From: Ruminococcaceae bacterium YAD3003
GTDB taxonomy: Bacteria > Bacillota > Clostridia > Saccharofermentanales > Saccharofermentanaceae
Assembly (NCBI GenBank): GCA_900107185.1
Contig: FNPA01000002.1
Span: forward strand, 186,001-250,000
DNA: 64,000 nucleotides
Reading direction: 5' to 3'
Shown piece by piece: positions 28,414 to 31,694 of the stretch (the first letter of the stretch is position 1; each line of letters begins with the position of its first letter). The position numbers were made by a program, and so were the translations under genes. The notes under the pieces are model-generated. The model was given only the letters and a program-made list of their open reading frames with translations, did no database searches and was not told the origin of the DNA.

Positions 28414-29853
28414 ATGAAAGACAGTTACGAGAGCCCGTTAAACTCCCGCTACGCAAGTAAGGAGATGCAGTACATTTTCTCGCCTGATAAGAAGTTCCGT
28501 ACATGGAGACTTCTTTGGATCGCTCTTGCAGAGGCTGAGAAGGAATTAGGTCTTAACATCACTGATGATCAGATCGCAGATCTCAAAGCTCATAAGGATG
28601 ATATCGATTATGAGGATGCGGCAGCAGAGGAGAAGATCCGCCGTCACGATGTAATGGCTCATGTCCATTCATACGGTAAACAGGTTAAGGGTTCCGGCGC
28701 TGATGCCATCATCCACCTCGGTGCCACTTCATGCTATGTTGGTGATAATACAGACATCATCATCATGAGAGAAGCATTAGAGCTCATTAAGAAGAGACTC
28801 GTTGTTGTTATCGCTAAGCTCGCTGATTTTGCTGATGAATACAAGGCTATGCCTACTTTGGGTTTCACGCATTTCCAGCCTGCACAGCTCGTTACAGTAG
28901 GTAAGAGAGCAACTCTCTGGCTCCAGGATCTCGTATTCGACCTTGAGACAGTTGAGAATGCAATCGCTTCGTTAAAACTCCTCGGATGCAAGGGTACAAC
29001 AGGTACTCAGGCTTCTTTCTATGATCTCTTCGATGGAGACCACGCTAAGTGTGTTGAACTCGATAAGAAGATCTGCGAGAAGATGGGATTCGAACAGTCC
29101 TACTATGTATCAGGTCAGACATATTCCAGAAAGGTCGATTATACAGTTCTCTCTGCTCTTGCAGCTATCGCTCAGAGTGCTCACAAGTTCTCTAACGATA
29201 TCAGACTTCTCCAGCACTTAAAGGAGATCGAAGAGCCTTTTGAGAAGAACCAGATCGGATCTTCTGCTATGGCATATAAGAGAAACCCGATGAGATCAGA
29301 GAGAATCGCATCTCTCTCAAGATATGTAATTGCAGACGTTCTTAATCCTGCAATGACATCTTCTGAGCAGTGGTTTGAGAGAACATTGGATGACTCTGCA
29401 AATAAGAGAATCTCTGTACCTGAGGCATTCCTTGCAGTTGATGCAATTCTCGGTATTTATACAAACGTTGTTTCCGGTCTTGTTGTATATCCTAAGATGA
29501 TCGAGAAGCATATCCTTGATGAGCTTCCGTTCATGATGACGGAAAATATCATGATGGAAGCAACAAAGAAGGGCGGAAACCGTCAGGAACTCCACGAAGA
29601 GATCCGTCAGCTCTCTATGCAGGCCGGTTCAGTTGTTAAGAATGAAGGTAAGCCCAATGATCTCCTCGAGAGAATTGCTGCTGATCCTAAGTTCGGCATG
29701 ACAATGGATGAACTAATTAAACTAAGAGATCCTAAGCTCTATATCGGCAGATGTCCTGAGCAGGTCGATACATTCCTCTCAGAGTGTGTAAGACCTCTGA
29801 TCGAAGCTCATAAGGATGATCTTGCGGTAAGCGAAGTAGAACTCAAAGTATGA
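28414..29853 (+). CDS. purB: Adenylosuccinate lyase
   Basis: Cleaves adenylosuccinate to AMP and SAICAR to AICAR, releasing fumarate, in purine synthesis. Starts PLNSRYASKEMQYIF; HDVMAHVHSYG, IHLGATSCYVGDN and the fumarase-family signature SSAMAYKRNPMRSE are all present. 479 aa. ATG 28414 has GGAGG at 28400-28404; the frame stays open upstream, overlapping the aminotransferase, but that extension is not needed. A terminator follows at 29882. Confidence 0.96.
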   Translation: MKDSYESPLNSRYASKEMQYIFSPDKKFRTWRLLWIALAEAEKELGLNITDDQIADLKAHKDDIDYEDAAAEEKIRRHDVMAHVHSYGKQVKGSGADAIIHLGATSCYVGDNTDIIIMREALELIKKRLVVVIAKLADFADEYKAMPTLGFTHFQPAQLVTVGKRATLWLQDLVFDLETVENAIASLKLLGCKGTTGTQASFYDLFDGDHAKCVELDKKICEKMGFEQSYYVSGQTYSRKVDYTVLSALAAIAQSAHKFSNDIRLLQHLKEIEEPFEKNQIGSSAMAYKRNPMRSERIASLSRYVIADVLNPAMTSSEQWFERTLDDSANKRISVPEAFLAVDAILGIYTNVVSGLVVYPKMIEKHILDELPFMMTENIMMEATKKGGNRQELHEEIRQLSMQAGSVVKNEGKPNDLLERIAADPKFGMTMDELIKLRDPKLYIGRCPEQVDTFLSECVRPLIEAHKDDLAVSEVELKV

Positions 29854-29881
29854 TTTGAGATTCAATAAATCAAGAAAATTT

Positions 29882-29925
29882 AGCGGGATATCCTAAACGG
29901 AGAGTTTGGCATATCCCGCTTTTTA
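29882..29925 (+). terminator. Terminator after purB
   Basis: AGCGGGATAT / ATATCCCGCT arms with an inner AAAC / GTTT pair, followed by five T. The right arm overlaps the predicted promoter of the next transcript. Confidence 0.85.
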
Positions 29926-29934
29926 TATTAAAAT
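29906..29934 (+). promoter_or_regulatory. Promoter for the structured region and cysS
   Basis: TTGGCA at 29906-29911 and TAAAAT at 29929-29934 with a 17-base spacer; a start near 29941 would follow. The -35 box lies within the purB terminator hairpin. Confidence 0.5.
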
Positions 29935-29940
29935 ATAAGC

Positions 29941-30284
29941 AACTCGAGCATGGTGGCCTCTAAATTGGACCTACATGACGTAATAAGGAGCTTGGGCCTG
30001 TCTTTTTGATGTAAAGCCTTGTAAGTTGGACTATTGAGATCTGACACCTGAGCACCGCCCTGGATTTCCGGGTGTCAATCAGAGTCCACTTTGTTTCGGG
30101 GGTTTAAGGAGAGAATATGGGTAATATCGTTGATGCAAGCAGTTTAGCATCTTTTGGCCCGGTCGCCAGCATGGCGGCTGGTTCTATTTTTGTGTTCCAC
30201 GCATTCATTAACTTAAGATCCTGTCGATGTTGAATCTTGAAGCTGTACGAATGAAAAAGATTTAACATTAAGGAGAATAGAATA
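29941..30284 (+). ncRNA. Structured leader or independent RNA upstream of cysS, family unknown
   Basis: About 340 bases without a normal-sized gene. Long nested pairing is visible: TGGACT (30022-30027) with AGTCCA (30083-30088), and TGACACC (30041-30047) with GGTGTCA (30071-30077), forming a stem with internal loops. Further on are GATGC / GCATC and CCAGC / GCTGG hairpins (about 30131-30182). Base composition is higher in GC than usual gaps here. I checked by eye for T-box (no GGTGG-ACCGCG box), SRP RNA (no GGTCAGG or GGAAGCAGC), RNase P and tmRNA signatures and found none. It could be a 6S-, raiA- or other leader-type RNA; not assigned. Confidence 0.45.
30117..30233 (+). CDS. Possible 38-aa peptide in the cysS leader
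   Basis: AAGGAGAG lies 4 bases before ATG 30117, a good ribosome binding site. The peptide starts MGNIVDASSLASFGPV, has a weakly hydrophobic middle and ends RSCRC, with two cysteines just before the stop. A leader peptide with cysteine codons at the end ahead of the cysteinyl-tRNA synthetase gene would fit attenuation by charged tRNA-Cys, but the same bases also form RNA hairpins, so it may not be translated. Confidence 0.35.
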   Translation: MGNIVDASSLASFGPVASMAAGSIFVFHAFINLRSCRC

Positions 30285-31694
30285 ATGAAACTTTACAATA
30301 CACTCACAAGAACAAAAGAAGAATTTAAGACCATAGAACCCGGCAAGGTTAAGATGTATGCTTGCGGTCCTACGGTTTATAACTATTTCCACCTCGGTAA
30401 TGCCAGACCGTTCGTTACTTTTGATACTCTTGCCAGATATCTTGAATATTCAGGTTATGACGTAACGTTCGTACAGAACTTTACTGATATCGATGACAAG
30501 ATGATCAAGCGTGCAAACGAAGAAGGCATCACTGTTGAAGAACTCGCTGACAGATTCATCAAGGAATACTATGTTGATGCAGACGGTCTTAACATCAAGA
30601 GACAGTCATTCCAGCCAAGAGCAACACATTCAATGAAGGCCATCATCGGTCTCATTAAGGCTATGGAAGAGAAGGGCTTCACATACATCATCGAAGGTGA
30701 CGGTGTTTACTATGATGTATCCAAGAAGGCTGATTACGGTAAGCTCTCACATTACAATCTCGATGAACTCGCAGCAGGCGGCGGTGAGCGTAAGGCATCT
30801 TACGAAGGTAAGAAGAATCCCGGTGACTTTGCCTTATGGAAGTTTAAGAAAGAGGGAGAACCTTCATGGGGTTCACCTTGGGGCGAAGGAAGACCGGGTT
30901 GGCATATTGAGTGCTCTGCCATGATCAAGCAGTATCTTGGGGATACTATCGATATTCACGGCGGCGGACAGGATCTTATCTTCCCGCACCATGAGAATGA
31001 GATCGCCCAGAGTGAAGCTGCAAACGGATGCACATTCTGCAACTATTGGGTGCACAATGCTTTCGTTAATATCGATGGCGAAAAGATGAGTAAGTCATTG
31101 GGGAACTTCTTTACTATCAGAGATATCGTTAAGAAGTATCCTTATAACGTAGTCAGATTCTTTATCCTGTTGGGCCACTACAGAAGCCCCATCAATTTCT
31201 CTGATGAACTCCTGGCAGCTGCCCAGACGAGCCTCGGAAGAATCTCCAACTGCGTAAGAAATGCAGACTTCGTGCTTAATAGCGGCAACCTTACAGGTGA
31301 TGCTGAAGCAGATAAGGTTCTTAACGATGCTATAGCAACAGCTACTGACAGCTTCAAGGCTCACATGGACGATGACCTCAACAGCGCAGATGCTATTACT
31401 GATATCTTCAATCTTGTACGTCAGACAAATGCGAGTGCCCAGGAAGGTAAGATCTCAAAGGAATCACTTCAGGCTGCAAGAGACAAGATCGTTGAGCTCA
31501 CAGGTGTTCTGGGTATTCTTTTGGATCTCGAAGATGAGATCCCTGAAGAAATCACAGAACTTGCTAACAAGAGAGCAGAAGCTAAGAAGGCTAAAGATTA
31601 CGCTGAAGCTGACAGGATCAGAGATGAGATCCAGTCTAAGGGTTATACCGTTAAGGATGTACCCGGCGGATTTAAGATCGAGAAGGCAAACTGA
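30285..31694 (+). CDS. cysS: Cysteinyl-tRNA synthetase
   Basis: Class I synthetase that charges tRNA-Cys. Zinc-binding Cys and HIGH-type motif appear as YACGPTVYNYFHLGNARP, the second zinc site as WHIECSAM, and the KMSKS loop as GEKMSKSLGNF. 469 aa, normal. AAGGAG precedes ATG 30285. It opens a short run with mrnC and rlmB, an arrangement common in Firmicutes; the stop overlaps the mrnC ATG by one base. Confidence 0.97.
   Translation: MKLYNTLTRTKEEFKTIEPGKVKMYACGPTVYNYFHLGNARPFVTFDTLARYLEYSGYDVTFVQNFTDIDDKMIKRANEEGITVEELADRFIKEYYVDADGLNIKRQSFQPRATHSMKAIIGLIKAMEEKGFTYIIEGDGVYYDVSKKADYGKLSHYNLDELAAGGGERKASYEGKKNPGDFALWKFKKEGEPSWGSPWGEGRPGWHIECSAMIKQYLGDTIDIHGGGQDLIFPHHENEIAQSEAANGCTFCNYWVHNAFVNIDGEKMSKSLGNFFTIRDIVKKYPYNVVRFFILLGHYRSPINFSDELLAAAQTSLGRISNCVRNADFVLNSGNLTGDAEADKVLNDAIATATDSFKAHMDDDLNSADAITDIFNLVRQTNASAQEGKISKESLQAARDKIVELTGVLGILLDLEDEIPEEITELANKRAEAKKAKDYAEADRIRDEIQSKGYTVKDVPGGFKIEKAN

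Follow-up and report, generated by a model that had tools for sequence, protein, structure and literature searches.

A Divergent 6S RNA and a Putative Cysteine-Sensing Leader Derived from cysE Upstream of cysS

Overview

The region upstream of cysS, the gene for cysteinyl-tRNA synthetase, was analysed in a 64,000 nt stretch of DNA (hereafter the window: Ruminococcaceae bacterium YAD3003, contig FNPA01000002.1, positions 186,001 to 250,000). The leader of this gene is best read as a cysteine-sensing translational attenuator made from a truncated cysE (serine acetyltransferase) gene and placed behind a divergent 6S RNA, a reading that is given a probability of about 0.6-0.65 for loci of the window's type and that fails in some lineages. 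It was put together from computed features, namely the identity of the 6S RNA, the CysE origin of the leader ORF, its kept frame, its enrichment in Cys, the hairpins, which partly covary, and the modelled effect of ribosome stalling. A preliminary description of this DNA had recognised a Cys-ending ORF ahead of cysS, and this is indeed a conserved feature of the kind expected of a cysteine sensor. The same description took the region as one single structured RNA, in place of which a 6S RNA and a separate leader ORF behind it are now distinguished; it also missed the derivation of the ORF from cysE, the probable internal terminator, and the predicted role of the Cys codons themselves as the anti-Shine-Dalgarno arm. 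The parts of the locus are as follows.

29906-29934, + strand: promoter-like site TTGGCA-17-TAAAAT in the terminator region after purB; would serve the 6S transcript
29941-30111, + strand: divergent 6S RNA (almost certain), 171 nt; model R1, covariation and order-level synteny
30106-30111, + strand: Shine-Dalgarno sequence AAGGAG of the leader ORF, seen in the sequence
30117-30233, + strand: leader ORF of 38 codons, very probable remnant of the CysE N-terminus, ending Ser-Cys-Arg-Cys-stop; CysE profile (7.9 bits) and homologues
30159-30191, + strand: hairpin with T-run resembling an intrinsic terminator, within the codons of the ORF, -16.1 kcal/mol
30219-30238, + strand: predicted anti-Shine-Dalgarno arm, codons TCC TGT CGA TGT TGA and the next bases; UCCU at 30219-30222 and GAUGUUGAAUCUU at 30226-30238
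30257-30275, + strand: opposing arm AAGAUUUAACAUU (30257-30269), then the cysS Shine-Dalgarno sequence AAGGAG (30270-30275), by predicted pairing
30285-31694, + strand: cysS, cysteinyl-tRNA synthetase, the proposed regulated gene; ORF, TIGR00435 544 bits (cut-off 340)

The promoter-like site in the purB terminator region, the 38-codon ORF with its Shine-Dalgarno sequence and SCRC ending, and the existence of hairpins further downstream in the leader had all been described before and were found as stated. The upstream neighbor purB is named by TIGR00928, and the 51 nt gap between the leader ORF and cysS contains the Shine-Dalgarno sequence of the latter. The 5' end of the covariance-model match, at 29941, lies 7 nt 3' of the promoter-like site, and in relatives a comparable -10 box is seen there by eye, the promoter pattern not being rare per se (2 found, 1.7 expected).

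The 6S RNA

Comparison with relatives identifies the RNA at 29941-30111 almost certainly as a 6S RNA. The Rfam model of this family, RF00013, does not reach its gathering score at the locus (14.4 bits versus 46.4; E 1.2 in a permissive scan), and such a trace would be worthless if taken alone. The matches above the Rfam cut-off in the window are four tRNAs, located elsewhere. T-box, raiA, SRP or another Rfam RNA was ruled out by the Rfam scans, in which none was found at cut-off when 29850-30350 was searched with all 4227 families; the absence of a T-box, noted from the outset, extends to the permissive scan. Of the two known RNAs that had been suggested, 6S stands, by virtue of the genus model, covariation and synteny described below, and raiA falls, having no match at E ≤ 10.

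On its own, the leader has an unremarkable folding energy (z -1.28 in full, -0.26 over its first 185 nt); single-sequence energies were dropped as evidence, so the case for structure rests on comparison. A DNA search of 59 genomes recovered the RNA, whole or in part, from 25, the window's own included, all belonging to one genus, a few of these matches being shorter than 30 bases. Named relatives carry the labels Saccharofermentans, Ruminococcaceae, Oscillospiraceae, Clostridiales or Clostridia, and many come from rumen or gut samples. Six of the 25 genomes (G006, G011, G015, G022, G024 and G031) have a full-length RF00013 match at the same spot, below the cut-off; the genus members listed scored 28-44 bits with the full model, and three genus loci that were rescanned gave 39.0-43.7 bits. 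With iterated nhmmer, a homologue of the RNA was found 5' of cysS in all 81 genus loci. These loci derive from a search of 85 genomes, in 81 of which cysS was found; 83 cysS places were listed and 81 fetched, two contig-end pieces of G093 being omitted and G004 contributing two loci.

An alignment (A3) of 32 out of 36 chosen loci, from which one locus cut by a contig end and three near-copies had been dropped, yields a single rod of 39 pairs, in 18 of which both sides changed with the pair kept (13.9 in shuffles). In this fold 95.6% of the cells are paired, and both sides changed in 113 cells versus 33 in shuffles; sliding the partner by 1-3 columns reduces pairing to 33-53%. The stem TGGACT/AGTCCA, TGACACC/GGTGTCA named in the preliminary description does occur in the sequence, but it is not conserved (67.4% of cells paired, no change on both sides) and was rejected as the functional fold, so that the covariation sought among relatives was found in a different, rod-like structure. 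The rod is unbranched, with a closing stem, an internal bubble and a terminal stem supported by covariation, as in 6S RNA, and the internal bubble presumably corresponds to the 6S central bubble.

The model built from this alignment (R1) scores 139 bits on the window, which is itself a training row. It also matches, with E between 6e-10 and 2e-19, all 30 fetched order-level loci that RF00013 places above its cut-off, these being the best-scoring, fetched share of the loci above cut-off, which occur in 46 of 148 and in 14 of 59 genomes. In the window's genome, RF00013 finds nothing at E ≤ 10 and R1 a single match, the 29941-30111 RNA. At the order level, 29 of the 30 loci carry either cysS or cysE followed by cysS on the strand of 6S, as judged within 1.1-1.5 kb after it; the exception, L032, has neither arrangement within that distance on the 3' side. 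Homology to accepted 6S RNAs is thus indicated by a joint model and by a shared neighborhood. The RNA shares with 6S RNA (ssrS, RF00013) the unbranched rod, the internal bubble and the covarying helices, one model covering both; it differs in its 14.4 bits with the Rfam model and in its position 5' of cysE-cysS, while 6S of lactic acid bacteria adjoins rarA/uspA according to PMC8414754.

Origin of the Leader ORF

The 38-codon ORF very probably represents the N-terminal remnant of cysE, as judged from its position and its homologues. Between 6S and cysS, the 81 genus loci contain a complete cysE (26 loci), a short ORF (39 loci) or neither (16 loci); five short ORFs missed by the search pattern were added by eye (L048, L051, L067, L073 and L074). 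The cysE family, TIGR01172, exceeds its cut-off in 26 of the 85 genomes, and also at L046. The window's genome has no cysE above this cut-off; two weaker, serine-acetyltransferase-like relatives lie elsewhere in it (G000:C8:62110-62595 and G000:C10:1783-2157).

When a profile built from the 26 complete genus CysE proteins was used with permissive alignment settings, all 45 short ORFs (39 from the genus and six from a second group) aligned to the CysE N-terminus; measured against 900 shuffled decoys, whose top score was 5.6 bits, 37 lay above, one tied and seven fell below. The window ORF reaches a modest 7.9 bits over profile positions 1-33; the similarity to the CysE N-terminus occurs at the very locus where other genomes have the gene. 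The ORF has no Pfam or NCBIfam match, and the catalytic hexapeptide domain is absent from it; one complete relative CysE carries Hexapep. L073 is an intermediate form, ending in QIRCQVS after a stretch that resembles the C-terminal helix of CysE (by eye).

The second group (L175, L178, L179, L182, L185 and L187), whose CysS proteins are 65-68% identical and which probably belongs to another genus, combines the N-terminus with a mid-CysE 'IGANA' stretch and a tail, e.g., RCCAVCTC; these six short ORFs were chosen for their tail. On a tree built from 78 CysS rows, 10 changes are required for the short state, at least seven of them forced by well-supported branches, which would correspond to several truncations, or to fewer truncations and regain by transfer. 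Six locus labels were set by hand before the tree was made, three of them being changed (L137, L177 and L184), and L146, L192 and L196 were left out for a short or cut CysS.

A Probable Terminator in the cysE Codons

An intrinsic terminator probably lies inside the codons of cysE or of its remnant, where a hairpin with a T-run behind it is formed by the stretch encoding Asp-Pro-Ala-Ala-Arg-x-Val-x-Gly-Val-x-Phe-Leu and by related stretches. With an energy of -8 kcal/mol or lower, this hairpin is present in 39/39 short and 23/26 complete genus loci, a level reached by 10% and 14% of dinucleotide shuffles, respectively, and the loci that beat all 40 of their own shuffles number 35 of the 39 short ones, the window included, and 18 of the 26 complete ones. 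None of 40 shuffles is as low as the -16.1 kcal/mol of the window. The hairpin is also found in all six loci of the second group and in all eight of its complete relatives, the complete genes having poorer T-runs. In an alignment (A2) of 38 loci with ungapped matching codons, which excludes clade A and with it the window, three pairs at third codon positions are kept in 33/38 (null 19.5), 29/38 (null 17.1) and 33/38 loci (null 29.1); the covariation score of the helix is above all 500 shuffles, but its both-side-changed pairs are not in excess (3 versus 2.3), and these nulls for pairing and covariation ignore relatedness.

Such a terminator would end the 6S RNA and limit read-through into cysS, and its location inside the codons would help to explain why the cysE remnant stayed. 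The same observations can be turned against a sensor. The ORF might be nothing else than a decaying cysE remnant, kept for the 6S terminator and sensing nothing, with the Cys codons as a by-product of pairing with the Shine-Dalgarno sequence. The near-universal hairpin with its covariation at wobble positions speaks for this view, as do the 16 of 81 loci that manage without a readable remnant and one locus (L184) at which cysE is seen decaying out of frame. The behavior of the reading frame and of the tail, described in the next section, makes it a rather unlikely account.

The Cysteine Tail

The ORF frame is open in 45/45 loci, which were picked for having the ORF, and the other frames contain stops in 42/45 (+1) and 45/45 loci (+2); in ten loci the clade A frame is read from the later of two neighboring start codons. 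This frame is held open while parts of the peptide drift. The window's type (21 loci) has an overall pN/pS of 0.64, with 1.1 across columns 11-20 and 0.35 across columns 31-40; clade B has 0.58 overall and no neutral block. For the second group the overall value is 0.60, with 1.1-1.35 across columns 11-40, 0.04 for the IGANA block and 0.34-0.36 for the tail.

Cys accounts for 118 of 540 codons when the last 12 codons are taken, versus 24 of 1529 in the remaining codons, and 300 shuffles of the tail bases give a mean of 23.6 Cys and a maximum of 40. The ORF therefore has what is expected of a leader peptide, a conserved short frame rich in the relevant codons. The enrichment extends to tails that do not pair with the Shine-Dalgarno sequence (the RCCAVCTC tail of the second group and a Cys cluster in clade B), which argues against the by-product explanation, as does the retention at the 3' end of the hexamer CGATGT (Arg-Cys), found 51-73 nt 5' of cysS in 34/39 short loci and in 7/26 complete ones and absent from the 3' end of five of the 39 short ORFs. 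Seven complete cysE genes encode Arg-Cys terminally or nearly so, yet show no clear Shine-Dalgarno hairpin. At five loci (L079, L080, L083, L086 and L100), likewise with no clear hairpin, the complete CysE ends exactly in Arg-Cys (CGATGTTGA) and stops 52-59 nt ahead of cysS, while the remaining 21 complete genes end at most 33 nt before cysS or overlap it. A +1 frameshift at CGA was considered and dropped, as the downstream frames are not visibly conserved (by eye).

The Predicted Hairpin over the cysS Shine-Dalgarno Sequence

In the window, UCCU and GAUGUUGAAUCUU, contained in TCC TGT CGA TGT TGA ATC TT, are predicted to pair with the AGGA of the Shine-Dalgarno sequence and with AAGAUUUAACAUU, respectively. 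Over the 21 loci of this type, pairing at the nine inner positions is retained in 91.5% of cells, and both sides changed in 11 cells versus 5.7 in shuffles, but the number of pairs with such changes (3 versus 2.0) is not beyond the shuffles (108/500). Four loci show a register shift, by which the seven bases UCCUGUC pair with the Shine-Dalgarno side. The arms prefer their cognate partners weakly (-17.3 versus -15.9 kcal/mol, 21 loci); the cognate arm is not the best in most loci, and for the window 18 of 20 others are as good or better.

The modelled cost of opening the Shine-Dalgarno sequence, as a mean of the 21 loci, is 7.0 kcal/mol in the free transcript and 7.7 kcal/mol with a ribosome 10 codons upstream, and it falls to 2.3-2.4 kcal/mol with the ribosome on either Cys codon and to 2.3 kcal/mol at the stop codon. 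The corresponding values for the window are 5.9 and 6.8 kcal/mol, then 3.7 and 3.6 kcal/mol for the two Cys codons and 3.6 kcal/mol at the stop. With a longer modelled transcript, Cys codons beat other codons at opening the Shine-Dalgarno sequence in 21/21 loci, but the best Cys codon lowers the cost by at least 2 kcal/mol in only 13 of them and not at all in three (L056, L062 and L063); the window changes from 6.7 kcal/mol when free to 2.5 kcal/mol with the ribosome on Cys.

A structure that a ribosome could switch, as a leader attenuator needs, is thus predicted for the window and for the average locus of its type; it is missing in the second group and the outcome is mixed elsewhere. In clade B, codons for Phe-Pro-Cys pair with the Shine-Dalgarno sequence and hide it; ribosome positions close to this Cys expose it, but the Cys cluster behind does not; one Cys codon opens it in 8/9 loci, and Cys codons on average beat the others in 2/9. 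The six loci of the second group have no sequestration and no stall effect, the free cost being 2.1 kcal/mol, and among the odd loci the stall effect reaches 2 kcal/mol in 4/9. A uniform sequestration for all short loci was accordingly rejected, being absent in the second group and doubtful at several single loci. Because clade B and the second group differ in this way, the mechanism is argued for the window's type only.

The mean accessibility of the Shine-Dalgarno sequence is 0.24 in short loci, 0.55 in loci with a complete cysE, 0.45 in the rest and 0.54 for 12 window genes. Compared with their own shuffles, only 11 of the 39 short loci rank among the lowest 3 of 60, and the window is not low (26 of 60 at or below).

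Proposed Mechanism and Alternatives

The scheme for the window's type takes transcription of the locus, translation of the ORF, a sufficient efficiency of termination and a response to cysteine as presumed steps. The 6S gene at 29941-30111 would head a former cysE-cysS transcription unit, in which cysE has been cut to its first codons plus a short tail ending in Cys codons. RNA polymerase would make the 6S RNA, most transcripts would stop at the terminator in the leader codons, and the remaining ones would read through into cysS. With ample charged tRNA-Cys, ribosomes would finish the leader and leave, so that the Ser-Cys-Arg-Cys-stop codons could pair with the cysS Shine-Dalgarno sequence and cysS expression would be low. 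With charged tRNA-Cys scarce, a ribosome would wait on a Cys codon in the arm, the hairpin would not form and cysS would be translated. This off state requires fast release, because a ribosome at the stop codon opens the Shine-Dalgarno sequence as well as one at Cys.

The last point also lends itself to translational coupling or reinitiation, in which finishing ribosomes would reopen the hairpin and start cysS regardless of cysteine, and leaders that raise downstream translation are discussed in PMC4833913. Coupling is nevertheless considered improbable, since it gives no reason for Cys-rich tails to recur ahead of cysS in two groups. Last, an arrest peptide or slow-codon device answering to the rare CGA codon instead of cysteine shortage would agree with the share of CGA among Arg codons (49/79 in the tails versus 37/737 in 44 long window ORFs) and with the retention of CGA-TGT even where no clear hairpin is predicted, but it is highly improbable, as the part of the peptide before the tail drifts, in contrast to known arrest peptides.

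It is slightly more likely than not that cysE of the Saccharofermentans group turned more than once into a cysteine-sensing leader for cysS, its operon partner: the body would have been deleted, and the start, the 6S-ending terminator and the Cys tail kept. The sensing role of the tail may predate the loss of the enzyme, because five complete cysE genes end in Arg-Cys-stop 52-59 nt before cysS.

Relation to Known Systems

In erm-type translational attenuators, a stalled leader ribosome frees a sequestered Shine-Dalgarno sequence. The signal in the window would be the lack of an amino acid and not a drug as in those systems (cf. PMC5118997). Leaders with Cys codons are also known. In Rhodobacterales, PMC8632094 describes uORFC-8-2, a short ORF with Cys codons before cysS for which ribosome-mediated attenuation was proposed; its Cys codons are in tandem, usually at positions 14-15, and are followed by a U-run consistent with a terminator. 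The window's leader resembles it in being a short ORF with Cys codons before cysS. It differs from uORFC-8-2 in that the Cys codons end the ORF and pair with the Shine-Dalgarno sequence, and in its derivation from cysE and location behind 6S; the order of parts is reversed, as the terminator (30159-30191) precedes the Cys codons (30222-30230). For actinobacterial cys operons, PMC1262725 reports leader peptides with Cys runs and states that no conserved terminator hairpin was found, and these leaders concern other genes in another phylum. In other Firmicutes, a cysteine T-box stands 5' of cysS or cysES (PMC2940859); the genes and the presumed signal, uncharged tRNA-Cys, are the same, whereas the window has no T-box match and its sensor would be the ribosome.

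A search of the open literature (closed journals lay outside it) returned no CysE-derived leader, no 6S beside cysE-cysS and no 6S of this group. Related cysS leaders have been published, but none found there is CysE-derived or adjacent to 6S; therefore, leader control of cysS is known elsewhere, and it is the cysE origin, the order of the parts and the 6S setting that look new.

The assignment fills in a missed 6S RNA for a large, mostly uncultured group of gut and rumen bacteria, and the rule that 6S precedes cysE-cysS offers a way to find further 6S RNAs. The locus is in addition a concrete case of a possible origin of leader peptides, by erosion of the first gene of an operon. Short, fast-drifting peptides of this kind should rarely reveal where they came from; at this one locus, cysE survives in complete, partly deleted and minimal form. 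If confirmed, ribosome-based sensing would replace the T-box that is usual before cysS or cysES in other Firmicutes, and it would be coupled to the 6S transcript.

Other Observations

Some single loci deserve mention. G024 has two 6S-like loci (C20:219-384, and L090 on C11), one of them at a contig end, which may reflect a duplicate or a mixture, and G004 has two different 6S-cysS loci (C84 and C61) with 6% contamination, so it is probably a mixture of two species. L184 has an apparently decaying cysE, with an internal deletion and a broken frame, within about 290 nt before cysS, and its relatives have a complete cysE. Two acetyltransferase matches contain one in-frame TGA each (G031:C193:15776-16270 and G099:C205:8257-8751). 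The second-group tail follows RCC(A/R)(V/A)C(T/M)CVS without Shine-Dalgarno sequestration, and it is preceded by a strongly conserved FLFRIGANA block (pN/pS 0.04). Finally, L091, L093 and L099 have no readable cysE remnant and show GC-rich terminator-like hairpins between 6S and cysS (by eye), as if every arrangement needed a terminator.
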